Of a stretch of DNA of 64,000 bases, positions 6,401-62,845 are shown one piece after another (within the stretch, counting starts at the first letter, position 1; the number at the start of each line of letters is the position of its first letter). The DNA comes from Astropecten irregularis. Taxonomy: Eukaryota; Echinodermata; Asteroidea; Paxillosida; Astropectinidae. The stretch covers positions 14,942,001-15,006,000 of the forward strand of contig OZ020248.1 in assembly GCA_963971285.1 (NCBI GenBank), written 5' to 3'. Both the position numbers and the translations under genes were made by a program. Below the pieces are notes generated by a model. That model ran no database searches, was not told the origin of the DNA, and was given only the letters and a program-made list of their open reading frames with translations.

Positions 6401-8824
6401 CCTATAGATTTTGGATCTATAGCAGTTCCTTGTGTGATAATATTTATGATTGCTTTGTTATTTCTATTGAAAATAGAACAAGAGGTTCAATGAACCTTTA
6501 TTGTCCCAAAAAATGGTACATTTTCCCCCTTGATTTGCATTTGAATAGAGAATTTTCAAGCAGACCGCAATCTGTGAATTCTAAACACAGCTGCGTGCAT
6601 GGATTACAGTCTGCCTGCAATTTGGGATAAAGTGTGGCAGTATTCAACCATTGTGTGCCGGCATTGTTTACACCGAGCTCCCTGTACGCATGGGCCGGCC
6701 AGATGACCTCTATTCCATCTGTAGCTGTGAGGCCGGTGCAAGCAAAGCCCAAAAACCTGGGCAGAAGTGGTTGATGATGATGTCATCACAGTTTGTAGAT
6801 TGGAGAAACTTACCAATCTGTTCATCCTAGTGCTGGGTTTTTTATCCGGTATTTTTTGACCGACCCGGATTTCATTATTCGGTTACAAATGTTCACTAAC
6901 CGTTAACCAAAACAGAAAGGGAACAAAACAGAGACCAACCTTTGGCTCATAATCAACAACCCAAAAAGTGTAACTGTAGAATGCATACCTGAATTTCTGT
7001 CAGTTATTCTGTAGAAAGTAGAAACACGCTTTTCACTACTTGACCTAAAAAAATATTGAACGTACTTGATCCAAATGCTAGATCTAGCATTTGATCTAAA
7101 AGCACGACCGTGCTAACACTTTCATTTAATATATTCGTGAAATAACCACAAGGGAAACTGACTGAGTTTTTAAGTCATTGAAAAGTGAACAAAGAAAAAT
7201 TGACTGGAGCGGGATTCGAACCGGCGACCTCCTGAATACCGTACAGGCGCTCTACCAACTGAGCCATCCAGCCCTATGTTGGTGGTGACCCCAATTGTCA
7301 ACTATCTTTGTTCGTTTGGCAGTCAGAAGCCATGAAACCACACACACACCGTCACACCCCAGGGATCGTTTCAATGATACACGCAACAATGCTGCAATAT
7401 TTTAATGACTAAATATTTTAATTCATTTAATGACGGTGATTACATAGGTTAACTGTTAACCTGATTTCTTTTTGCAATTAGTAACCGGATATGAAATTAC
7501 GGGATTTTGCCCAGCACTAGTTCATCCCTTGGTGTACCTTTGACTCATATCATGTAATACATGTACGATCACACCATATACAAAGATGTAAGAGGGCAGG
7601 AAACAGACCTTTAATACCGATAGCGCCCTCTGTTGACAATCAAGCTGAATAGTCTTGTTCCATGTAATTTTTGTCGCGTTCGAAATAGCAACCGCACATG
7701 TCAAAATGACTTCAACGTTAGAAATAAAAAAGAAGGAAGGATAAATCTTTGATCAAAACATTCACAAGGGACAAGATACAAAGAGCATTGATACAAATAA
7801 ATGGATAGAAGTGGGAATCCTAAACACTGAAGGGCGCCTGCACCCCTGCCGTAAGTCTTTCGCCTCGGTCGCGCAATTTATTGGCCTTCAGTGATTTTCC
7901 AGAAATGACTTTGTCGGTCACTTACATCCCTGCATATACAATTCTACCATGTAGGATCGTATCATGTACAATCATACTGATTACGATTATACTTTCTACG
8001 AGCGTACCATGTACAATCATACCATGTGCCATCTCGAGACAAAATCGATTTGATCCTTAACATCGATAATCCCAGTGACGACACGGAACAAGTGTGGGTC
8101 TGGGAGTACGAAACCGACGAAGGAACCCACGATCTCTTCATGGACACATCGGAGGAGATTCGGTTCCGGGTCGTAGACGAGGCCTTCGTGGACACCACGC
8201 CAGTCGGGCCCGAAGATGGAGGCGAGCCGGGGTCGGAGGTTGTCCGGGATGACACCAAGAGCAAGCACTCTCCGTACAGCTTGACGGTAAGAAACCAGAC
8301 GGAGAATGAACCCTAACCCTTCTCCTATCCACCAACAATCCATCTTATCCTATCATTAGACATTGTAAGGGATGTAGGTCATTTTAACCGTGTCAATGAA
8401 TGTGGGGTGCTGTGGCCTAGTGGTCTAGCGTGTCGCACTCAAGATCTTGTGGTCAATCTACAGATTGTGGGTTCTAATCCAGCCATGAGCTAATGGTGCT
8501 TGCGTCCTTGGGCAAGACGTTTTGTCACATATTGCTCCTCTTCACCCAGGTGTAAATGGGTACCTGCGAGGGTTGAGATGGCTCTGTGGTTTGATTGGCC
8601 TCTGTGTGATTTACAGTAGCCGGGGCAGTATGCTCCTAGGGAGTTGAGATGGTTTCAGGAATGTAAATTATGGCCTGAAGACGAGGGATAATTAATAATA
8701 CATAAAGTGCATAGTGAATCTTTGATTATTATGTGCTTTATAAGTGGATATTATCTTTTATTATTATTCCCAGGGATCAATCAGTGAGCCTGGTCTTGGA
8801 CTGCTGACTTGGTGGGCGAGTTAA
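3410..8824 (+). CDS. POLR3H: RNA polymerase III subunit RPC8 (POLR3H)
   Basis: Coding exons are 3410-3520, 4307-4402, 5088-5175, 5932-5995, 8076-8286 and 8774-8824. Phases join cleanly to a 206-residue protein, close to the roughly 204 residues of vertebrate POLR3H. RPC8 pairs with RPC9 (CRCP) to form the Pol III stalk that binds emerging RNA and helps initiation on tRNA and 5S genes in the nucleus. Seen in sequence: the N-terminus [16 protein letters not shown], the block [14 protein letters not shown] in the N-terminal SHS2-like half, then [17 protein letters not shown] and [16 protein letters not shown] in the S1/OB-type half, and the conserved C-terminus [11 protein letters not shown]. 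The start is the first ATG of the family-matching frame. Intron 4 (5996-8075) looks U12-type; the other donors are GTAAGT, GTAAAC or GTAAGA. The acidic linker near [12 protein letters not shown] is the least conserved part. Confidence 0.95.
3640..3965 (+). repeat. Repeat shared by first introns of POLR3H and LENG9-like
   Basis: About 320 bp resembling 15095-15410, with common blocks TACGTACGAACGTCTGATAC, ATCTGTTTTGAGAACATTTC and TGATAGACACACTCGC. Confidence 0.75.
4445..4625 (+). mobile_element. SINE-1, self-inverted copy
   Basis: The B-box half of a SINE-1 is present inverted (GGGATTCGAACCGG) and then direct (CCGGTTCAAATCCC), giving a hairpin. The usual SINE-1 tail (TTTGTTCACCTTTCAATGAT, then CAGTTTCCCTTGTGGTTATT) follows. 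POLR3H intron 2. Confidence 0.75.
4770..5030 (+). mobile_element. SINE-4, 3' part
   Basis: Matches the inverted copy at 40490-40795 over the CTCCCTCCACAAAAATCAAA, GGCGCCCATGAG, GATCATGTTGTTGCCGCATC and GTAAGGATGATTAGC blocks. The tRNA-like head is missing here. Confidence 0.65.
6405..6745 (-). mobile_element. Copy of the 26575-26980 repeat
   Basis: The reverse complement matches 26640-26960, for example ATAGAGGTCATCTGGCCG, CAAATGCAAATCAAGGG and GAACCTCTTGTTC. POLR3H U12 intron. Confidence 0.65.
7140..7395 (-). mobile_element. SINE-1
   Basis: A tRNA-derived SINE. On the minus strand it has about 110 bp of leader with TGACTGCCAAACGAACAAAG, a tRNA-like part with A box TGGCTCAGTTGG and B box GGTTCGAATCC, and a tail TTTTTCTTTGTTCACTTTTC then CAGTTTCCCTTGTGGTTATT. 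The tRNA-like part keeps acceptor pairing (GGCTGG with CCAGTC). Confidence 0.88.
8401..8755 (+). mobile_element. SINE-3
   Basis: A tRNA-like head (A box TGGCCTAGTGGTCTAG, B box GGGTTCTAATCC) is followed by a conserved body (CCTTGGGCAAGACGTTTTGT, TTCACCCAGGTGTAAATGGG) and an AT-rich tail. It occupies most of POLR3H intron 5, which ends 18 bp after it. Confidence 0.8.
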
Positions 8825-12260: not shown

Positions 12261-15200
12261 TCAGTGTTCATATTGGACATCCATACTGGCTAAACAATAG
12301 TAGAAGCCATCAGCTCTTATGGGGTCATCCATAGAGCAAAGGTGGATGGCATCTACAGGTTGTACCCCGATGAAGGCTTGTTCAAATCTCTTATACAAGT
12401 CAAAGTGAATGGGCATGCCATCAAATGCACGGGCGTCATCCCAGTTCATCTTCATCAGAGTCAAGTGAGGGTTGAACGTGTCACGGTTGCCAACGAGGTT
12501 GATCCCAGCATCCCTTAACCCTGTTAAGAGTGTCTGGGAGAGTTTCAAGAGGGCCGGGGATTTCTCCGGAGGCGAGTACAGGATCCGGTTGGAGAACTGC
12601 CCCAGGCCCTGGAACCGTAGCATGGTCAGTGGGGAAAGAAGGCTGGAGATGTCCTGCTGGAGTGACTGCAGGACGCGGATGGCCGTGGACTTCTCGTAGG
12701 AGCTCTCCAGACGCATAGTGCAGAGGGTGATGTGGAGGCGGGCATCATCGATGCACGTATCCTCTAGCCGCGGGTCCCAGTCACAGACAGCATCCTGGAT
12801 GCGTCTCACACACCTGAGGATGACAGGGTCTGTGATGCGGATGCTAAAAAAGTAATTGGCACCCTGACGCGGTTGTCGTTTCTTCTCCACTCTTGATGAC
12901 GCCTCTGAATCCACAGATAACTTCTCAACCGTCAGCTCTTCCTTGACGTCATCACTTGTTTCCTTCTCTTCCACGTTCTGGTTCTCTTTCGAAAACATCT
13001 GCACCGTGTCCAAGATGGTCGTGTTGCTGCCGGTCGACCCGAAGACATTATCGATCCGTTGATTTTTGTCCCAGACCACCTGGTCTTTGTACTTGAAGTA
13101 CTGGATGCGGTGCCTCGGTATGGCCAGGGTCACGTAGTCATCAACGGTGGCGATGTCCACCCAACTGAAAGCCGTGAAAGGTTTCTCCATGATGCCCACG
13201 AATCGGTCCAGGTAGCCCACGGTGAAGTCCTCCTGGCGTACCTGCCTGTCCCACTGGATGCGGGAGATCACCTCTGATGCCGTCTTCATCCTGGGCTTCT
13301 TGCTCTGATATTCCTCCTCCTGACTTGCCCGTTTCTTCTTCTTCTTCTCCTTCTTCCCTCTCCTCCGAGAATCTCCTATGTCTTCATCTTCAAGATTCTC
13401 GTCTTCCTTGGGGATAGGTGTCCTTGATGCAGGCTCACCGACTGCAGGCAAAGTGGAACAAGGTCAGATTTGAATGACACAAGATTATACAGGGGTTGTA
13501 GGGGTTACTGCAGGCCCAACTTGGTCCAAAGTGTGCCAGATCAATGAAGAAATGGCGCATAACACAGGACCTTGTTTGTTTAACGCAAAGGACCACGGAT
13601 TCTGTGGGTCTGGATCCCATTTTAGCATACCCTGCATAGGACTTGGATTCACAAATTTGGAATCATGTGTGTTAAACAAACAGGCCCCTAATCAGGGGCC
13701 GATTTCACTAACGCTTTGCCATCATCGCTAAAGTCCAAATCCATCACTTAATGGGAAATTGCTATGCAAAGAAGCAATCAATTTTTCCGTTAAAGGTTGT
13801 ATCACACTTTGGTAAGAAACCAAAACGGAAATGTTCATTGATTTACGTATAACTTACAGGGTATGAAGATGGTGGTGGTAGAAACATACCGTTAAAATGT
13901 TTCCGCCTGAAATGGTGTATTTATCCAGAAATTTATAAAACAACGACCGAAAATCTTTTTGATCTTTTAAAAGATCAAAAATAAAACAGAAAAGACTTAA
14001 GAAATACTGTGGCCGTTTTTCACTGTTTTCTCGAAAAGTTGGCACCGTATGGGACTGAAATTTTCACAGATTACTTTTACTGTATCTTCCTTGATATTTT
14101 TGCCCATGAATCTGTATTTCTTTGACAAAAACCAAAGTATGATACTACCTTTAACCAGCTCTATGATATTGACCCAGCTTAGACCCAAGGCCAAAGGTGG
14201 TGTTAGGCAAAGTTTCTTGGCCTGTGTACTCACCTGGATCCTCTTCCTCCTGATCACTATCATCATCAATATCGTCTCCTCCAGCGGCCCTCCGTCCATC
14301 CAGCCACTCCTTAGCAACGTCCAGCAGAGCGTACATGACCGGTTCTCCCCTGGACTCCTGGGCGGACTGGTAGAGCTTCTGCAAAAGCTCCGTCAGTAAT
14401 GGGTCATCCTGGTCGAGATTAGCGGCCGCCTCCTCCCTGGCGAGAATCTCCACCTTCGGACTGGTCTGTGGATAGTTTGCTTCACATCACAGAAAAAAAT
14501 TTAATTAGCTCAGTTAAAACTAATATATAATTTGAAGAATTTATAAGATTTGAAAAGTGAACAAAGAAAAATTGACTGGAGCGGGATTCGAACCAGCAAT
14601 CTCCAGAATACCGTACAGGGGCTCAATTAGTTTGCCTTGTGGTTGTTTAATGAATTTATAAGATTATCTAAAAGTACGTAATGATTGATAAAATGTGAAA
14701 TGTGCCACAATTATTTTAAAATGGCAGTGTATATTTTGCTAGCACCGGCATTTTTCTTGCAAATGCTATTTTGCAGCTGCAGCCAATTTCATGAAATTTC
14801 ACCTTATTTTCACGTAACTTATGCAACATTTTACTGCCTTTGGTTGCACAAGTTATGCACGTTTCACGAAACTAACCCAACATTTATATGTGGCATAAGT
14901 TATGCAACATTTTGTGAAATCGGCTGCAGTTCCCTTACTTGGATTGGCAAAAATTTGCATTACATAATGCTTGCAAGAACGTACCTCCAGCAAATAACGT
15001 TTAGAGAAAGAAGGCCGGCATGACATATTGAGAATTGGCCAATAAGAAAAAATTAATGCACACTTCAACATTATTAAAAGCAATAAGACAAGTTGAAACT
15101 CTGTGTCAATACGTACGAACGTCTGATACATGCGTGCATGCAAATTTTATGCGACACGGCACATCTGCCAATCGGATCTGTTTTGAGAACATTTCCGTCA

Positions 15201-16533: not shown

Positions 16534-39821
<23,288 letters not shown>

Positions 39822-41990: not shown

Positions 41991-44416
41991 TCATTACTTG
42001 ACATGTGACATCCTCATCATTATAAAAAAAACTGCAAGTTTTATAGTGAGCATGGCCAAACAGAATGGTGCATCGAGGCAGCAATGTGTCAGAAGTGAGC
42101 GGAAATGTCATGATGTCACAGCGACTCTGCGCTAACTCTGCATCATACAACACCGTCTTTAAAAAAATCTGAATCAATCACAGGATGTTATCGTGAGCAA
42201 ACGGCTTCCGAGCTCCAAACAGCTAGCAAGCAAGCTGACTGCTAGCCACAGGACAACTGCACCGAATTAAGGGTGCACCCTACTAAATAGCTCAAAATTC
42301 AATGCGCCGAGCTGATTATCATATTCTGTGTACCCTCGAAATGTTTTTAAAATATGCAATTTGTGGGGTCATGCAATTTGTGTAATTATGACGGGCTATC
42401 ACAGCCTGGGGGTTCAGTGCTTCAGCCTGTTGTGGAGACTTGAGACATTTTGGTTTAAAATCCGGTCCTACGTTGTTTTGAACGTGGAGGGTTGCTTCAT
42501 GAAATCTGGTAGCAAGTCGGTTACTGAATAAGGACATTTCGAGGGTGTTTTTTTTCTTGGGGCAATTAGCAAAAAATCCAATCGGTTACCCAACCAAAAA
42601 TTGAAAAGAATTGGGTAGATGAGAGTTCACACTACCATTTACACAATTGCACCAACAACTGAGAATCTTCTGGATGGGATTTTTTTAACTGTGAAGTTGA
42701 GGAATTTTACACTAAGGTCAATGGGAGTTTATTTAGTGTGGTGACTGTTAAAGTTATCTGCCGCCCTCTATTGACAGAAAAAGTTACTTTGATATTTTAT
42801 ACTGTTCTATCTTTTCTACTCCCCCCTCCCCTTTTAAGATTGATTGTATGAAATAAATGGATACAAAAAAATAAAATATGAAATAGAAATTAAACCTGAG
42901 GACTCCCGGAGTGATATCTGTTTGTTGTAAAATAGGAAAATGAATGAGGTGTCGAGTTATGTTGATTCTTGAGCTTTTTGCTTGTAATTGTGCCTACTGT
43001 CTATTGTACATGTACATGTACATGACTTTCTTTTACAATTTCAGTAAAATCATTAGTTTCGTTGCAAGGCCTTATAGTTTTGCACTGTTTTCAATGGACC
43101 AAACATGATTATTTGTGTACATGTATTTCTATTCATGGGACTTTGAGTTATTGTGATCTTTTTCTTTTGAAAGAATGAGAATCCAAGTGGAATTTTAATA
43201 ATCTGCCCCAAAAAGCCTAAATTCTGTTTCCCGTAGTTTAGAATCGGCGTTTACAGAAGCAGAAAATCCCCAACTTGATCCTATTTCTTTAATTCGGAAG
43301 TTTTTTTTAGTTGTGCACGTGCATAATACAAGATTTTCTAGTCAACTAGGCTGGTGTAGAAATTTGGCGCTAAACCTAAAAAGCAAAGAATTAGGATCAT
43401 AAGGGCATGATTTCCATGAAATTAAGGCAGAACAGACTGTCCTGCTATTGGGGAATGCTGCATATTAAAATTATGTACTTTATATAAATTGTTTAGGGAT
43501 GTAAATGCTACCTCCATGGTTATGGTTTGAAACTTTGGATAAATGACAAAATGCTAATTTAGATTGGATGGATATCTGGCCAGTGTAGCATGCTGTTCAA
43601 TTCCTTCCCCGTTAATGGTTCGCGTCATCATTACTTGTTAGTCCTCCAAATCCCCCCATGTAATAGGACCACACCCTTTCCTGAGATCAATGAGATCAAT
43701 ATTTCCTCCAATCACTTCCAGTGTATGGCCGGGGTCAGTCTTATCAAATATGACCATATTAAATGTCTATGGTTCACCCATTACAAGGACCATATGGGCT
43801 AGGCAATTTAGCTGTAGTGATTTCTACATGAATTTATATTTCTATAAGTACCAGGGATGAGATTGACCAATGATAAAAATGTCTGAAAACAGCCGACAGG
43901 GAGCATAAAAAGTCTTAAATCTGAAAATCTCCTATAGCTATACTTTTGTACACAGGCTGAGGAAAAAAATCTGAAATCAGATTTTAATCTGAGAAATCTC
44001 ATCCCCGTTTAACCCTATTATTACTTTCAACATTCTTGTGATTATTTCTTGTGATTTTCACAAAAGTAACACTGCGCAATTTTGTTTGCTGTGTTGGCAC
44101 TCTTTTTTTTACATTTGCAGTTGAGTTCCTTGTCTCTTCTTTTGCTCAGTAATAATTTAAGGCCCTTTTAAAAAAAAGCATCCCCTGCATGGCTACAAAA
44201 TTTTCCTGGGGTGGGATTTCCCGTGTTATTGCAAATTGTAAAAAGACGCAAAGTATCACAAAATAATTATCTGACAATAGTCAGATGTGTTTGTTAGTTA
44301 ATAGTCCCCATGGTTAGTTAAAATAATCCTAAGATTTTGACTTTATACTTAAAAATGGTTAACACATAAACAAAGACGCATTTTATTTAGCAATGGAGAA
44401 ACAGACATACTGACTT

Positions 44417-44430
44417 AATCTCTTTTTTGA
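44417..44430 (-). promoter_or_regulatory. Histone downstream element (U7 snRNA pairing)
   Basis: The purine-rich minus-strand sequence TCAAAAAAGAGATT starts about 10 nt after the stem-loop, at the position and with the composition of the element that base-pairs with U7 snRNA. Confidence 0.75.
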
Positions 44431-44439
44431 AGATGTGGT

Positions 44440-44455
44440 GGCTCTGAGAAGAGCC
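44440..44455 (-). terminator. Histone mRNA 3' stem-loop
   Basis: On the minus strand this reads GGCTCTTCTCAGAGCC: a perfect 6-bp stem, 4-nt loop, flanked by AAAC upstream and ACCACA downstream. It is the SLBP binding structure of replication-dependent histone mRNAs. Confidence 0.95.
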
Positions 44456-44482
44456 GTTTGGGTTTTGGAGGAAGTAAAATCT

Positions 44483-45160
44483 TTACTTCTTGGAGGCCTT
44501 CTTTGCTGCTGGCTTCTTTGTAGCCTTCTTTGATGGCTTGGCCTTGGTTGGCTTCGGCTTGCTGGTCTTCTTGGGCGACTTGCTTGCCTTCTTGATGGCT
44601 GGCTTCTTTGTGGCCGATGCTTTCTTGGCAGCTGGCTTCTTGGCCTTCTTGTCGGCCTTCTTGGGGGACTTGGCCTTCTTCTTCTCTGTCTTCTTCTTGG
44701 GGGACTTGGCCTTCTTGGCTGCTTTTTTGGCTGCCTTCTTGGCTGCTGCCTTCTCCTTCTTGGCTTTGTTCTGCTCCTTCTTCTTCTCCTTCAGGACCTT
44801 GGCCTTCTGGCGGGCCTTCTCCTTCTTGGCCTTTGCTGAAGCAGACTGCTTGGCAGCCTTGTTGTCCAGCTTGAAGGATCCGCTGGCTCCCTTGCCCTTG
44901 GTCTGCACCAACTTTCCGGAGGTGACCAGGGTCTTGATGCCACGCTTGATGTAGTTGTCGTACGAGGCAGGCAGGGTGTAGTTGGCGTGGATGTACTTCT
45001 TGATCGCCTGCAGGGAAGAGCCCGAGCGGGGCTGGTCCTTCAGGTTGGCCACGGCAGCCAGGATCATTTCACCGGCAGACGGGTGGGACGTCTTCTTCTT
45101 GGCCGCGGTCTTCTTCTTGGCCGGCTTGGCTGGCTTAGCAACGGGTGCCTGATCAGTCAT
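44483..45160 (-). CDS. Linker histone H1 (intronless, replication-dependent type)
   Basis: A single-exon frame encodes 225 residues. A short lysine/alanine N-tail leads into a winged-helix globular domain of about residues 26-100 (HPSAGEMILAAVANLKD, SLQAIKKYIHANY, IKRGIKTLVTSGKLVQTKGKGASGSFKL). A long tail of lysine, alanine and SPKK-type repeats follows. It binds linker DNA and compacts nucleosome arrays in the nucleus. The stop codon is 28 bp before a canonical histone stem-loop (44455-44440), followed by a purine-rich downstream element, so the mRNA is probably non-polyadenylated and S-phase expressed. No core histone gene is seen nearby. The antisense strand also stays open because of codon bias; that is a shadow. 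Confidence 0.96.
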   Translation of the reverse strand: MTDQAPVAKPAKPAKKKTAAKKKTSHPSAGEMILAAVANLKDQPRSGSSLQAIKKYIHANYTLPASYDNYIKRGIKTLVTSGKLVQTKGKGASGSFKLDNKAAKQSASAKAKKEKARQKAKVLKEKKKEQNKAKKEKAAAKKAAKKAAKKAKSPKKKTEKKKAKSPKKADKKAKKPAAKKASATKKPAIKKASKSPKKTSKPKPTKAKPSKKATKKPAAKKASKK

Positions 45161-45285
45161 GATGAGATGTGATGGTTATTCTTTACGAGAGAAGCGAAAA
45201 GTCTGATTGCAACAACGACAAACAAGTTCATGGGCATGGACAGCTACGCGCGAGACTTATGCCTGTATTGCGGACGCAGTATAAG

Positions 45286-52252: not shown

Positions 52253-53373
52253 AAGTCTAAACGGGTGCCAGTCAACTCGGTCCGTGACCAACTCGGTCCG
52301 AGTCAACTCGGTCCGTGACCAACTCGGTCCGAGGCCAACTCGGTCCGAGGCCAACTCGGTCCGCGGCCAACTCGGTCCGCGGCCAACTCGGTCCGCGGCC
52401 AACTCGGTCCGCGGCCAACTCGGTCCGCGGCCAACTCGGTCCGCGGCCAACTCGGTCCGCGGCCAACTCGGTCCGCGGCCAACTCGGTCCGCGGCCAACT
52501 CGGTCCGCGACCAACTCGGTCCGTAACCAACTCGGTCCGTGACTAACTCGGTCCCTATGGGAAAACGTACACAAACAAGAATCCATGCATTTTGCAGCAG
52601 CAGTGTACAACATGTAGGCTACTTGCATTAATGTTTTTTAATGTCTCATAACATAATATGTTTTGCTTGTGGCTGAAACCGTGAAGAAATAAATTATGTC
52701 TTATGATGTTGATACCATAATTATTTGATAAAAAGGCACAATACAATTTTAATTAAAATATCAATTAAATTATACACGAAGTCAAATGCCTTATGAAAAC
52801 GTGCTTTTTATGTTTAAAATTAATAAATCAATTAATGAATAATAAAGATGATTGTTTTGTGTTTTTGTTTTTGATTTGTTAGCTTTGTTTTAATTAATCT
52901 GTGTATATACATATAACATAATTTAATATAATATTTATAATTGGCAGGTTGGGAAGGCACGTCTTTTGATGACAGGTTTTTATGTGTGTTTTTTTTTTTA
53001 CTTTTTGTCAGGCCCTGGGCAGCACCTGCCAATGTATTTTTCATTATTTTAATGTTTTTAAGATAATAAATGAATAGATAAATAAATAGACCTAGATAAA
53101 TAGTTAAATTCACGCAATTTGAGAGACTACCTACTCGTTTTGCTGAAACAAAATTACCAGACGTTTTTGCGTGCATTTTCCCATAGGGACCGAGTTGGTC
53201 ACGGACCGAGTTGGTCACGGACCGAGTTGGTTACGGACCGAGTTGGCCTCGGACCGAGTTTGTTACGGACCGAGTTGGTCATGGACCGAGTTGGTTACGG
53301 ACTGAGTTGGTCACGGACCGAGTTGACTCGGACCGAGTTGGTTACGGACCGAGTTGACCTGAAACCGTCTAAA
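52253..53373. mobile_element. Foldback element with 16-bp tandem-repeat arms (TU-like)
   Basis: The left arm (52271-52552) is about 17 copies of a 16-bp unit, CCAACTCGGTCCGCGG and variants. The right arm (53188-53360) holds about ten inverted copies. The inner ends of the arms are also inverted (CCCTATGGGAAAACG and GCATTTTCCCATAGGG), as are the outer ends (TCTAAACGG and CCGTCTAAA). CCTAACTA precedes the left end and follows the right end. The middle (about 620 bp) is AT-rich with no recognised gene. Confidence 0.88.
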
Positions 53374-53500
53374 CCTAACTAGGCCTAGGCCTATTTGCTG
53401 TTTTATACTATTACTAGGTCATCTACCTCCACGATAGGCCTATCTTGAGTTTGTGTTTGGCCAAACAAAATGAGGAGATTGAAGAATGAAGAGGAATTGT

Positions 53501-53840: not shown

Positions 53841-54775
53841 GTCAGACAAGTCGACCACAGGACAACTCGTCTTGAGACAAATCGACTCCAAAGACAACTC
53901 GACTCTGAGACAGCTCGAATCCAAAGACAACTCGACTCTGAGACAGCTCGTCTCCAAAGACAACTCAACTCCGAGACAGCTCGACTCCAAAGACAACTCA
54001 ACCCCAAAGTCCCCAAGACAAGTCGGCTTCATCCATTCCCCTGTGCGGCGATGCTAGGCTGGTGTGCGCAACAGAAATTTATGTAAAGGAAAATGATGCG
54101 CAAAATACTAAGTCTGATAGTAATAAATTGGAAGCAAAAGGCTGGCTGCCTTCCTATTTACTTCTATATGGTTTATGTATTTTATCTGTGTAATTTTTTT
54201 ATTCACATACTGCATAGGCCCTACACTTTTGTTTACATAATTATTGTTTCGTACTTTCATCGCACACACTAGCCTAGCATCGCAGTGGCATAGATATAGA
54301 GTCGACTTGTCTTGGAGTCGAGTTGTCTTTAGCCCTGTCTGCACTGGACTTTTTTGGGGCAAAGTAACCGAGACGCTGGGTACCCATTTTACGTCCAATG
54401 CGGACGTCTCAGGAAGTCTTCCTCTCAGTTACTTTGCCTGATGAGCCGCGCAGGTATTTCTACCGGCCAATTTCTGCCCGGGTAGCAATGCCCGAGACAC
54501 TTTACCCAAGACGAAAAGTCCAGTGTGGACAGTGCGAGTCGGGTACCCGCATGAGCCTAGTATTGTCAGCTCGGTAATTCTTCCTCGTATTCCGTGCCTG
54601 CACGGTTAAGTTACCTGTGTCAAAAGTCCAAGTGGGGACACTGGTAATATTTGCTTATTTTTCATTTACCCATCGGCTCAGTTAGATCCCCAGAAAAAAA
54701 AAGTCCAGTGCGGACAGGGCTTTTGGATTCAAGTTGTATTTGGAGTCGAGTTGTCTCGTGGTCGACTTGTCTGGT
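53841..54775. mobile_element. Foldback element, GACAAGTCGACCAC ends, with nested transposon
   Basis: The left arm (53841 to about 54025) is a tandem array of roughly 30-bp units made of GACAACTCGACTC and GACAGCTCGACTCC blocks. The right arm, inverted, is split by another element into 54300-54330 and 54722-54775. Outer ends are AGACAAGTCGACCAC in both orientations. Confidence 0.82.
54331..54721. mobile_element. MITE, AGCCCTGTCTGCACTGGACT ends
   Basis: 391 bp with ends AGCCCTGTCTGCACTGGACT and inverted AAAAGTCCAGTGCGGACAGGGCT-type sequence; TTT on both sides. It sits inside the right arm of the foldback. A relict of the same family begins at 56480. Confidence 0.85.
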
Positions 54776-55345
54776 GCCCTCTTAAGCGTTCTTTGTGGAC
54801 ACCCACACAATGTCAATGACACAGGTCAGAGCTTTAGCTAGCTTGTCTAGTTCCTGCATGAAATGTTTACATTACTGTAGCGTTGTGTTGATTTTTACAT
54901 GTGGATTTCTACCTCCATGCTATCCAGGCCTTGAAATTTGTTTTAAAAGGGGCAAGGCCACTTTTCCATTGCAAGGCTGGGGCACTTCCTTTGGAAAAAC
55001 ATAGTGTCTATGGAAACATTTGAAGGGGGCAAAAAGGCCAAGAACCAGGGCAACAAAGGTTATGGCCTTAGTGGCCGCCGTTAAATTCAAGACTTGTCAT
55101 GCATTTTAAACTGTTTCATCGACAGTTTAAGATTGGCACCATGAGTTGTCACATGTTTTATCGATAAAGCATTGGCACCCTCTTGCAAAGCATCATGGGA
55201 TGCAAAAGGGATATCTCCTTTTCAGAGGTTCGGAAAGAATTCCACGGAAAAAGGATTGTATCATCCGTCAAATCATGGTCAAATGCTGTTTAAATGGCAC
55301 AAAAGGAACAAAGTAATTGACATATATTGAAACACTGCCAACATA

Positions 55346-56205: not shown

Positions 56206-56253
56206 ATAATTATTGTGTATAAATCTGTCTTTGCAGGTAAAAAATCATACAGG

Positions 56254-59200
56254 ATGAGTGGTTTTATTGGTTTAGTACCTGTTAGCGATGGTGTCCAGAA
56301 ACAAGTTCTCAGGCCCGGAGGACCAACCAATGTGAAGGCTGGAGAGAAGATAACAGTACACTGCACAGGCTCTCTGGCTACCAACCCACCCAAGAAATTC
56401 TGGAGGTACAGTATTCATGGGGCCAAGGACTGAAATGAAATGGAAATTCTTTTCTATCCAGTAAAAACCTCTTCTCTAAAGCCCTGTTCACACTGGACTT
56501 ATTTTGGGCAAAGAAACTGAGCCAATGAGTAACTTAGTGCGGACAGCCTGGGTAATTTTCCTGACAGGTAACTTAACCAAGCCGCGTGGGTAGTTTAACC
56601 GAGCCAAAGTTGGCCAGGAAGATTGACCAGGTCAGTTTAACCGAGCCAGAAAATCTAGATAAATACAGCATTTCAGGCAGAAATATTTTAATGGTATGTG
56701 TCTGCCATCACCATCTTTACACCCTGTAAGTTATAGGTAGATTTGTAAAGAATTTGTTTGTTTCGGTGTGCTACCAAAATATGATACTACCTTTAAGTCC
56801 TTACAATTCCCCATGCGGTAAAGCACATCAGCCCACTTAATTAAACTTATTCTAATCTGCACTGTTAAAATCTTTCTTAGCAAATTTGAATTATTTCTGT
56901 TTTGTTTCTTTTGTTTTGTTTTAAGTACAAAGGATCCAGGACAGAAGCCGTTTTCCTTCAATGTTGGCATAGGACAAGTGATAAAAGGTACTCACAACCC
57001 TGGGGCCAATTTCATAGAGCTGCTTAGCACAAACAATTGCTTAGCACAAAAATAGCTTGCCCAATAAAACAAACCATCATTGAAAATTTCAGTTGATATT
57101 CATGGTCAGCGAACGACAGCCAAAGAACAATTGCAAGTGATACACAACACACCGAAATCCTGATTTTACTAAGACAGAAATGTCATGCTCAGCGAATTTT
57201 TGTGCTAAGCAGCTCTATGAAAATGGCCCCTGGTCTACCACCCTGCCATTCCTATGTTCTCAGTCTGTAATAAAAATCCTCATAACTCCTAAACCTACTC
57301 ACCCAACTGTCCGATTTCCTCTAAACCATTCATTACCCCCTAAACCAACCCCTTTAACCATCTCATCACCCCCCCCCCCTGGCCATTCCCACCCTTGCAA
57401 ACCTCCCATCCCTCAACCACCACACCTCTCAATTATCCAAAACCTCCAACCATCCCCTAATACCTCAAATATCCTCTTCATTCCCTACCCCCCCCTCCCA
57501 ATCGGCCATTTCCACACCTTCAACCCTCCCACCTCTCAACCATTCTCCACCCCTCAACCATTCCCCAATCATCCCTCCCCCCTATAACCATCACTACCCA
57601 CTCAACCATTCCCACCCTTTCAACCTTCCCACCTCTCAACCATCCTTAGCCCCTAAGCTTCCTCTACTCTCAAAACCTACTCTCTTTGGGTCAAGTTTGC
57701 CTCTTCAATTTGTTTTAATGTTTTTTCATTATACTGTATTTCTTGTTGGTTCCCCACATGAGTATGCATGAAAATTCCCCATTTTGCAAAGCCATTCAAA
57801 GGAAAACGAAATACTAGTTTGAAACCAAAATAAGACTTTCCATTCATTACCTGTCAGTATACATGTATTCTCTGTATGAAGGCAATACAATATAAACCTG
57901 ACTGAACGAAGCACTGCAGTAACCTTTTAACCATCTCGCTACCATTCCCAACTCTTCCACCATTAACCATCCCTAACCATAAACCGTCCACTATCCCAAA
58001 CCACCCCTTACCCCTCAACCATCCCCAGCCCCAACCTTTGTCTCCCCTTAACCATGACCCTACCCTCTCAACCATCCCCCTGTCTTCTTCTTTCTTTGGC
58101 CCAAGCAACAAGAGTGATGCTATCGCCTAATTGAAGAGAGCTTACCTATCTTTTGTTGTTGTCCTTGTTCTTCCTCAGGCTGGGATGAAGGTTGTATGAG
58201 CATGACCAAGGGGGAGATTGCAGTGCTGCATATTTGCGCTGAGAAAGGCTACGGTGCCTCCGGCTTTCCAGCATGGGGATATCCTTTCACATACTTCATT
58301 TCGCAACCCCCCCTCTCCCCACAACAGCAGCATATGAATCCAACCTGTTTTCAGGTTCAATTTGACCTGCCTTCATGTTGAAAGTTGATCAATTAATTCC
58401 CAAAATGAAGCCACGAAGAATTTGTTAGTTGAATTTCAACTCTGCCCAGAGCTAAGATCAACTTCCCTTCATGTTGAAATTTGATCAACTAGTTCCCAAA
58501 GTGACTCTGAATTTCAACTCTGCCCAGAGCTAAGATCAACTTCCTTTCATGTTGAAATTTGATCAACTAGTTCCCAAAGTGACTCTGAATTTCATCTCTG
58601 CCCAGAGCTAAGATCAACTTCCCTTCATGTTAAAAGTTGATCAACTAGTTCCCAAAGTGAAGCCATTTAGAATGTGTTAGTTGATTTCCAACTCTGCACA
58701 GAACTAAGATCAACTTCCCTTCATGTTGAAAGTTGATCAACTAGTTCCCAAAGTGAAGCCATTTAGAATGTGTTAATTGATTTCCAACTCTGCCCAGAAC
58801 TAAGATCAACTTCCCTTCATGTTAAAAGTTGATCAACTAGTTCCCAAAGTGAAGCCATTTAGAATGTGTTAGTTGATTTCCAACTCTGCACAGAACTAAG
58901 ATCAACTTCCCTTCATGTTGAAAGTTGATCAACTACCAAAGTGAAGCCATTTAGAATGTGTTAATTGATTTCCAACTCAGCCCAGAGTAAGAACAACTTC
59001 CCTTCATGTTGAAAGTTGATCAACTAGTTCCCAAAATGAAGCCACAAAGAATTCGTTTATTTCCATCTCTGCCCAGAGCTACTAAGATCAACCTCCCTTC
59101 ATGTTGAAAGTTGATCAACTAGTTCCCAAAGTGAAGCCATGAAGAATTTGTTTGTTGATTTCCAACTCTGCCCAGAGCTAAGATCAACTTCCCTTCATGT

Positions 59201-61102
59201 TGAAAGTTGATCAACTAGTTCCCAAAGTGAAGCCATTTAGAATGTGTTAATTGATTTCCAACTCAGCCCAGAGTAAGAACAACTTCTCTTCATGTTGAAA
59301 GTTGATCAACTAGTTCCCAAAGTGAAGCCATGAAGAATTTGTTTGTTGATTTCCAACTCTGCCCAGAACTAAGATCAACCTCCCTTCATGTTGAAAGTTG
59401 ATCAACTAGTTCCCAAAGTGAAGCCTTTTAGAATGTGTTAATTGATTTCCAACTCAGCCCAGAGTAAGAACAACTTTTCTTCATGTTAAAAGTTGATCAA
59501 CTAGTTCCCAAAGTGAAGCCATTTAGAATGTGTTAGTTGATTTCCAACTCTGCCCAGAACTAAGATCAACTTCCCTTCATGTTAAAAGTTGATCAACTAG
59601 TTCCCAAAGTGAAGCCATGAAGAATTTGTTAGTTGATTTCCAACTCTGCCCAGAACTAAGATCAACTTCCCTTCATGTTGAAAGTTGATCAACTAGTTCC
59701 CAAAGTGAAGCCATTTAGAATGTGTTAATTGATTTCCAACTCAGCCCAGAGTAAGAACAACTTCCCTTCATGTTGAAAATTGATCAACTAGTTCCCAAAG
59801 TGAAGCCACAAAGAATTTTTTAGTTGATTTCCAACTCTGCCCAGAGCTACTAAGATCAACCTCCCTTCATGTAGAAAGTTGATCAACTTGTTCCCAAAGT
59901 GAAGCCATGAAGAATTTGTTAGTTGATTTCCAACTCTGCCCAGAACTAAGATCAACTTCCCTTCATGTTGAAAGTTGATCAACTAGTTCCCAAAGTGAAG
60001 CCATTTAGAATGTGTTAATTGATTTCCAACTCAGCCCAGAGTAAGAACAACTTCCCTTCATGTTGAAAATTGATCAACTAGTTCCCAAAGTGAAGCCACA
60101 AAGAATTTGTTAGTTGATTTCCAACTCTGCCCAGAACTAAGATCAACTTCCCTTCATGTTGAAAGTTGATCAACTAGTTCCCAAAGTGAAGCCATTTAGA
60201 ATGTGTTAATTGATTTCCAACTCAGCCCAGAGTAAGAACAACTTCCCTTCATGTTGAAAATTGATCAACTAGTTCCCAAAGTGAAGCCACAAAGAATTTT
60301 TTAGTTGATTTCCAACTCTGCCCAGAGCTACTAAGATCAACCTCCCTTCATGTAGAAAGTTGATCAACTAGTTCCCAAAGTGAAGCCATGAAGAATTTGT
60401 TAGTTGATTTCCAACTCTGCCCAGAACTAAGATCAACTTCCCTTCATGTTGAAAGTTGATCAACTAGTTCCCAAAGTGAAGCCATTTAGAATGTGTTAAT
60501 TGATTTCCAACTCAGCCCAGAGTAAGAACAACTTCCCTTCATGTTGAAAATTGATCAACTAGTTCCCAAAGTGAAGCCACAAAGAATTTGTTAGTTGATT
60601 TCCAACTCTGCCCAGAGCTAAGATCATCCATGCAACTGCAATGTTCGTGTTTTTAATACTTAAGCTCCATGCATATTCAGTGTATTTTTACTGTTGTGTT
60701 TATGCAACTTTGCTAAGTTTGCCTGGGTGCGGAGTTTGTGTTTGTGCATCACTAAGCATGAGTCACGGATACAGTGAAACACCACTATAATGAACATGCT
60801 GGGATGCACAGAAATGATGTTCGGTATAGTGGTCATTCGTTATATTGAACAATGTTCAGCAGGCCTGCACATTGTACACAAAAATTGAGAGCCAAGTGCT
60901 AATGATGTTCGGAATAGCCAAATGTTCGCTCTAGTGATGTTTGTTATAGCAGCGTTCCACTGTATTATAACTTTTTATTCTCCTGTGAAGTCTAAGAGTA
61001 ATTTCTTTTAAGCTGCTTCATTGAAACATCTTTCCTTGACTTGCTGTTTCTCCCACGATACCTTCAAACACCGGTCTTCAATTTGAAATAGAGATCCTGT
61101 AA
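56254..61102 (+). CDS. FK506-binding protein, plant FKBP12-like peptidyl-prolyl isomerase
   Basis: Exons 56254-56405, 56926-56987, 58179-58278 and 61057-61102 join in phase to 119 residues, one FKBP domain. FKBPs catalyse proline cis-trans isomerisation. Pocket residues visible are the F of KKFW, V and I of QVIKGW, the W itself, Y of GYGASG and F of LQFEIE. The motifs KFWSTKDPGQKPF and GFPAWGIP are more like plant and protist FKBP12 than like animal FKBP1A, which has KFDSS at the first site; the aspartate of that motif is replaced by W. The C-terminus FEIEIL then stop is typical. A splice acceptor 17 bp before the ATG suggests a 5' UTR intron. The last intron looks U12-type AT-AC. No signal peptide is seen, so it is probably cytosolic. 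Confidence 0.92.
56480..56600 (+). mobile_element. Relict of the AGCCCTGT(C)TGCACTGGACT MITE
   Basis: Begins AGCCCTGTTCACACTGGACT with GGGCAAAGAAACTGAG, parallel to 54331; the right end is lost. FKBP intron 1. Confidence 0.55.
56656..56796 (+). mobile_element. TTAA MITE copy k (3' part)
   Basis: Only the right 140 bp, ending ATGATACTACCTTTAA. FKBP intron 1. Confidence 0.82.
57001..57231 (+). mobile_element. MITE, AGAGCTGCTTAGCA family
   Basis: GGGGCCAATTTCATAGAGCT at the left and its inverse at the right (AGCTCTATGAAAATGGCCCC). It begins 14 bp after the FKBP exon 2 donor. Confidence 0.85.
57280..58080 (+). repeat. C-rich CCATCCC / CAACCATTCCC low-complexity tract
   Basis: Two pyrimidine-rich stretches (57290-57660 and 57920-58080) of irregular CTCAACCATTCCC units in FKBP intron 2. 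The proline-rich ORF over it is not a gene. Confidence 0.85.
58375..60627 (+). repeat. Minisatellite of ~78-98 bp units with higher-order structure
   Basis: About 24 tandem units, early ones about 78 bp and most 95-98 bp, each with the core CTTCATGTTGAAAGTTGATC followed by AACTAGTTCCCAAAGTGAAG. Every unit has a copy of the palindrome AGTTGATCAACT or a near variant. Units fall into variants (CCATTTAG, CCACAAAG, CCATGAAG). A five-unit block starting at 59793 recurs almost unchanged at 60288, a 495-bp period. Confidence 0.97.
60772..60962. mobile_element. TA-flanked MITE, CAGTGAAACACC type
   Basis: Third copy of the 21251-21432 family with TA on both sides. It lies in the U12 intron 70-285 bp before its branch site. 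Confidence 0.82.
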
Positions 61103-62725: not shown

Positions 62726-62845
62726 GATACCACCAATGTAGGGCTGGATAGCTCAGGTTTGTAGAGCACTGGTTCGATATTCTGGGGTTTGCAGGTTCGA
62801 ATCCCACTCCAGTCAGTTTGTTTTCCTGTGTGCACCTTTCATTGA
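62726..62845 (+). mobile_element. SINE-1
   Basis: A box TAGCTCAGG-TTTG, B box GGTTCGAATCCC, tail diverged. Confidence 0.75.

Follow-up and report, generated by a model that had tools for sequence, protein, structure and literature searches.

A predicted U12-type AT-AC intron at an apparently old intron site in an FKBP gene of the sea star Astropecten irregularis

The last intron of an FKBP gene in the sea star Astropecten irregularis is very probably a U12-type AT-AC intron, at a site that is probably inherited from an old U12-type intron. The gene, assigned from its predicted protein to the FKBP12 class, lies on the plus strand of the window, which is the whole stretch of 64,000 nucleotides analysed here (contig OZ020248.1, positions 14,942,001 to 15,006,000, equivalent to C11:14942001-15006000 in a genome of 475,729,200 bases and 168 contigs). 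Its four coding exons extend from an ATG at 56254 to a stop codon ending at 61102. The intron (58279-61056, plus strand, 2778 nt) interrupts codon 105 in phase 2, begins ATATCCTTTCAC and ends TTTCCTTGACTTGCTGTTTCTCCCAC, and the joining of 58278 to 61057 by the minor spliceosome is predicted with near certainty. A preliminary description of this DNA had proposed the same reading, which is now supported by the splice signals, the reading frame, the comparison with rival splice pairs, the small nuclear RNAs (snRNAs) of the genome and their pairing, and the paralogs. The coordinates that it gave (exon end 58278, intron start 58279, AC at 61055-61056 and next exon at 61057) were all correct.

The signals that define this class of intron are found at both ends. 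Directly after the exon, at 58279, the intron reads ATATCCTTTC, and the donor signal ATATCCTTT within the donor ATATCCTTTCA (58279-58289, plus strand) agrees with the rule RTATCCTT(T), as stated without the last T in PMC2846911. Near the 3' end, the branch site TTCCTTGAC (61032-61040, plus strand, with the branch A at 61039) agrees with TCCTTRAC, and the intron, which opens with AT, closes with a terminal AC at 61055-61056 (plus strand). The exon that precedes it (coding exon 3, 58179-58278, plus strand) ends GCATGGGG, encoding A, W and G with codon 105 split after two bases, and the last coding exon (61057-61102, plus strand; also a tblastn match) supplies the third base of that codon followed by IPSNTGLQFEIEIL and TAA. 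Splicing at this junction gives a product of 119 amino acids in which AWG-IP is read across the junction and which ends FEIEIL; the restoration of the AWGIP motif and of the FEIEIL-stop ending, as first described, is thus confirmed. On the spliced protein, the Pfam profile FKBP_C (PF00254) matches from position 2 to 94 of 94 with 76.4 bits (cut-off 21.1), and the spliced product therefore has the complete domain of an FKBP-type peptidyl-prolyl isomerase, whereas a protein read through the intron matches only positions 2-76 of 94 with 61 bits. The matches of the product among solved structures are FKBPs.

The rest of the coding part comprises two exons and two GT-AG introns. The exon carrying the start codon (ATG 56254-56256) occupies 56237-56405 on the plus strand, and an acceptor at 56236 implies a further exon, perhaps untranslated, upstream of 56237. 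Intron 1 of the coding part (56406-56925, plus strand, GT-AG, 520 nt) falls in phase 2 in codon 51, coding exon 2 (56926-56987, plus strand) is also a tblastn match, and intron 2 (56988-58178, plus strand, GT-AG, 1191 nt) falls in phase 1 in codon 72.

The chance of finding such signals was estimated from the first-order Markov statistics of the window. The probability of a perfect [AG]TATCCTT is 3.6e-5 per position and that of a perfect TTCCTT[AG]AC within a 13-nt range is 1.7e-4. Donor and branch site together have a probability of about 6e-9 where coding evidence fixes the junction, or of 2e-8 if three shifts are allowed. Either motif alone is not rare in the window: perfect donors occur seven times over both strands, where 2.15 per strand would be expected, and perfect branch sites followed by an AC or AG in range occur twice, where the expectation is 0.53 per strand. 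The motifs carry weight because they are placed at a junction fixed by the protein.

That placement was ranked among 600 donor/acceptor pairs (donors 58200-58420, acceptors 60900-61099), including 60 GT-AG and 150 GC-AG pairs. The reference was the AWGI-type FKBP printed in PMC11848173, preferred because the window gene itself has AWG. The AT-AC junction 58278/61057 came top with a score of 318 (next 304), and among the six best pairs shown it alone was gapless at the junction. The last exon was reached in frame by 31 of the 600 pairs. A U2-type alternative was sought among these pairs and was rejected, as none of the 210 GT-AG or GC-AG pairs is in frame with the last exon. The reference protein, which is a construct sequence and was compared at the protein level, is identical to the window protein at 61 of 108 positions, and the alignment is gapless across the splice junction.

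The genome also encodes the RNAs that such an intron would need. Single matches above the family cut-off were found for U6atac (139.2 bits), U12 (132.2), U11 (100.7) and U4atac (87.4), whereas 14 control genomes, all prokaryotes, gave no match to any of the four. Eight Watson-Crick pairs could form between donor positions +4 to +11 and this U6atac, and seven pairs (one G-U) between positions +3 to +9 and this U11. The branch region could form 12 pairs (three G-U) with the U12 if A61039 is bulged. In the proposed course of events, U11 and then U6atac would pair with ATATCCTTT, U12 would pair with TTCCTTGAC leaving A61039 bulged, and the minor spliceosome would join 58278 to 61057, so that the 14 residues IPSNTGLQFEIEIL complete the FKBP fold.

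These features are those of known AT-AC U12 introns in animals, plants, oomycetes and others, which likewise have ATATCCTTT as donor, TTCCTTRAC near the 3' end and an AC terminus, lie in a phase other than 0, and occur in genomes with minor snRNAs. The window intron differs from them in a slightly long distance from branch A to intron end (17 nt), in a length of 2778 nt with a satellite array, and in a pyrimidine-rich tail. The preliminary description had considered AT-AC introns to be a very small minority of U12 introns. This is wrong: AT-AC introns are 24% of minor introns (PMC8280824) and, in human, about 26% (PMC10639083), and U12DB has 565 GT-AG and 204 AT-AC clusters (PMC2831892).

Several observations weigh against the assignment or lessen its support. 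The 17 nt from branch A to the intron end exceed the published optimum of 11-13 (PMC6717393) or the range of 10-15 (PMC2426677); the corresponding distances in two paralogs are 11 and 14 nt. Counted by eye, 14 of the 17 bases after branch A are pyrimidines, and PMC2846911 states as a general property of U12 introns that the sequence from the branch site to the 3' splice site is not rich in pyrimidines. We regard this property as a tendency that does not serve to exclude an intron from the class. With two FKBP references that do not have AWG, the junction ranked fourth of 341 pairs (416 against 422, 422 and 418), all four top pairs being in frame and AT-AC. The pairing with the snRNAs is implied by the consensus and is no independent proof. 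Moreover, conserved U12 introns are concentrated in the 5' parts of genes (PMC2426677), and the window intron is the last of its gene.

Two further FKBP genes in the same genome have a U12-type intron at the corresponding codon. A tblastn search of the genome with the protein gave 10 matches, three of them exons of the window gene and seven weaker FKBP-like or unrelated stretches (a match on contig C22 included), and 20 exons were matched by PF00254; both counts are lower bounds. The gene on C22 (C22:2686501-2696500, locus L223, minus strand) is of the FKBP1A type and encodes 108 residues, 80 of which are identical in human FKBP1A. Its last intron is also AT-AC and U12-type (ATATCCTTTTT ... 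TCTCCTTAACTTCCATGCAC, 468 nt, with an AC end, the branch site TCCTTAAC and the branch A 11 nt from the end). It interrupts codon 91 in phase 2, and in the protein alignment this codon corresponds to codon 105 of the window gene, which is likewise split in phase 2. With all positions compared, the two genes have no GT-AG intron position in common: the FKBP1A-type gene has its GT-AG introns at codons 13, 29 and 67, whereas the GT-AG introns of the window gene correspond to codons 39 and 59 in the FKBP1A-type numbering.

The second paralog is of the FKBP3 type (C8:6210601-6230600, loci L249 and L250). Against FKBP3 (3kz7), the top single-domain chain among the matches listed, the last 50 residues of its protein reach 75.7 bits; against a three-domain FKBP of wheat they reach 101.4 bits over several stretches. 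An exon ending PDA-AA is followed by GTATCCTTTGT, and the intron of 946 nt contains the branch site TTCCTTAAC and ends in CAG; 946 nt further on from the donor, TTTTCCTTAACTAACAATCCTCAG stands before A-ATT-CCT, giving K-I-P. This is a U12-type GT-AG intron in phase 2 in the codon before I-P. Codon and phase are thus the same in the window gene and in the FKBP1A- and FKBP3-type genes, and the window intron (2778 nt, AT-AC) differs from the other two in length and from the FKBP3-type intron in its termini.

When the codon before I-P (V-P in one case) was read by eye in ten FKBP domains from the PF00254 matches, a U12-type intron was found in three, namely those of the window, of C22 and of C8 at 6.2 Mb. 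The other seven (two domains on C15 and single ones on C24, C10, C23, C21 and C8 at 15.5 Mb) have no intron at this codon, although in some of them GT-AG introns lie within a few codons of it. Further matched domains, such as those at loci L236, L239, L242, L245 and L246, lie outside this count. Near an exon end at locus L231 there is a GTATCCC, but it belongs to an ordinary GTAAGTATCC donor and was not taken as U12-type.

The pattern suggests that a single U12-type intron before Ile-Pro is probably older than the split of the AWGIP-, FKBP1A- and FKBP3-type genes, since these introns agree in codon, phase and class and yet no major intron is common to the window and FKBP1A-type genes. The difference in termini would then reflect a change between the AT-AC and GT-AG subtypes on one branch. 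Such switches are known, with 36 clusters containing both subtypes (PMC2831892). Between human and Arabidopsis, U12 positions are more conserved than U2 positions (PMC2426677), and the duplication of genes with minor introns is expected to yield families rich in them (PMC6865273).

Alternatively, the three introns may have arisen independently at the same codon or have spread by gene conversion, in which case the site would not be ancestral. We consider this unlikely. It is true that the comparison covers three introns within one genome, and that these are alike in their signals only (best stretch 12 nt, E 0.48), but the latter is expected under either explanation. Against it, the same codon and phase recur in three genes while the GT-AG introns of the window and FKBP1A-type genes share no position. 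A recent conversion is further opposed by the C-terminal coding stretches (IPSNTGLQFEIEIL, IPPKATLVFDVELIGMK and IPPNATLIFEVELVSLD), which are too different.

In an unrooted tree of five rows, the window protein groups with the AWGI-type protein of PMC11848173 (support 99/97). The FKBP1A-type protein groups with human FKBP and a fungal one. We take the AWGI-type FKBP12 to be the plant form. The passage of PMC11848173 that prints it names no organism. If the AWGI type is that of plants, the window and FKBP1A-type lines had separated before plants diverged from animals, and the intron would be as old. Three Phytophthora species, P. ramorum and P. infestans among them, are reported to have an AT-AC intron in their peptidyl-prolyl isomerase genes (PMC2846911, citing Russell et al. 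2006). This intron is of the same subtype as that of the window and lies in the enzyme class of the FKBPs, although the passage in PMC2846911 gives neither the intron site nor the kind of isomerase (FKBP, cyclophilin or parvulin). It is possible, and proposed here only tentatively, that the intron before Ile-Pro was already present in the last common ancestor of eukaryotes, that it is the same as the Phytophthora AT-AC intron, and that it has outlived the neighbouring major introns with a change of termini on at least one branch; this requires the AWGI protein to be that of a plant.

Among the papers listed in literature searches, none was seen that assigns a U12-type intron to FKBP1A, to FKBP3 or to an FKBP of the AWGI type, although U12DB, MIDB or supplementary tables may list one. 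The word FKBP is absent from the main text of PMC10639083, PMC6717393, PMC2426677, PMC8280824 and PMC6865273. Collections of viral contigs, genome contigs and plasmid records were searched as well; these comprise prokaryotes and viruses, and absence from them is uninformative on other animals. The viral contigs yielded five viral FKBPs with 33-45% identity to the window FKBP, and the plasmid records yielded 28 bacterial FKBPs with less than 60% identity. The pattern GCNTGGGGRTATCCTT occurs in 87 stretches of the viral contigs and in at least 117 of the genome contigs, and in a tblastn search of the FKBP against 209 loci only the five viral FKBPs were matched and none of the 204 pattern loci.

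The interior of the window intron is largely repetitive. A tandem array with units of 78 and 96 nt and higher-order periods of 191 and 481 (58430-60626, plus strand, from a repeat search and self-matches) consists of a part with the 78-nt unit (58430-58660) and a part with the 96-nt unit (58589-60626, 21.3 copies). This bears out the satellite of about 2.2 kb noted earlier. The short inverted-repeat element reported near the branch site, which is similar to a miniature inverted-repeat transposable element (MITE), was likewise recovered (60770-60964, plus strand, hairpin z-score -2.61). It has TA ends and inverted ends that are alike at 22 of 31 positions by script, the repeat finder having listed the inner pair only, and its right end is 68 nt before TTCCTTGAC. 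A near-full copy of this element is present at 21249-21435 (75% over 202 columns), with partial copies at 80-174 and 571-648. An intron of 2.8 kb with such an array and a MITE-like element is compatible with minor splicing.

The intron could also be kept in most transcripts or regularly, producing a second form of the protein in which the last 14 residues are exchanged for 33 others (YPFTYFISQPPLSPQQQHMNPTCFQVQFDLPSC). The read-through frame is indeed open for 33 codons, and A-type minor introns have a relatively high basal retention (PMC8280824). However, the read-through protein would be without FKBP_C profile positions 77-94, while the FKBP pattern is preserved in the 14 residues that the last exon supplies, and these align gaplessly across the junction with the FKBP of PMC11848173. 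Moreover, it is the shorter and not the longer minor introns that are retained more in mouse and human (PMC6717393). Regular retention of this intron would therefore seem very unlikely.

Removal of the AT-AC-ended intron by the major spliceosome is less probable still. Major AT-AC introns do exist (PMC2831892, PMC8280824) and the stretch before the AC is rich in pyrimidines, but in sodium channel genes such introns have a G at +5 (PMC2831892), whereas the window intron has a C at +5 in a perfect ATATCCTTT as well as a perfect U12-type branch site. Finally, that the gene is a decaying copy whose junction is unused, as the 2.2-kb array and the transposon remnant in the intron could suggest, is the least credible of these explanations, given 119 codons in four exons with no stop or frame break, two more clean GT-AG introns, and no second genomic copy of the window gene among the 10 tblastn matches.

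Other features were observed in the window. A 16-nt unit (CAACTCGGTCCG...) forms two inverted arrays at 52255-52575 and 53166-53374, about 590 nt apart and 87% complementary, which look like an element with tandem-repeat ends. A similar but weaker layout is found at 53861-54009 and 54299-54776, where one side has units GACAACTCGACTCC and the opposite side their complement, with one 56-nt pair at 79%. On the minus strand, a linker histone H1 reading frame (PF00538) at 44483-45175 has a histone 3' stem-loop downstream (44414-44460), and a 400-codon open frame at 12261-13463 has the domains MJ1316 and AKAP7_NLS. Four tRNA-like Rfam matches (7201-7273 on the minus strand; 24698-24770, 37299-37371 and 62742-62815 on the plus strand), two of which are called by ARAGORN (Thr with anticodon GGT and Ile with GAT), are perhaps tRNA-derived repeats.

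A lone AT-AC intron in one animal gene is ordinary, even if it is a feature that annotation pipelines may lose. The presence in one genome of three FKBP paralogs with a U12-type intron at one codon, two of them AT-AC and one GT-AG, provides a clean natural setting in which to date a minor intron, to follow a subtype switch and to ask why minor introns persist while major ones turn over.

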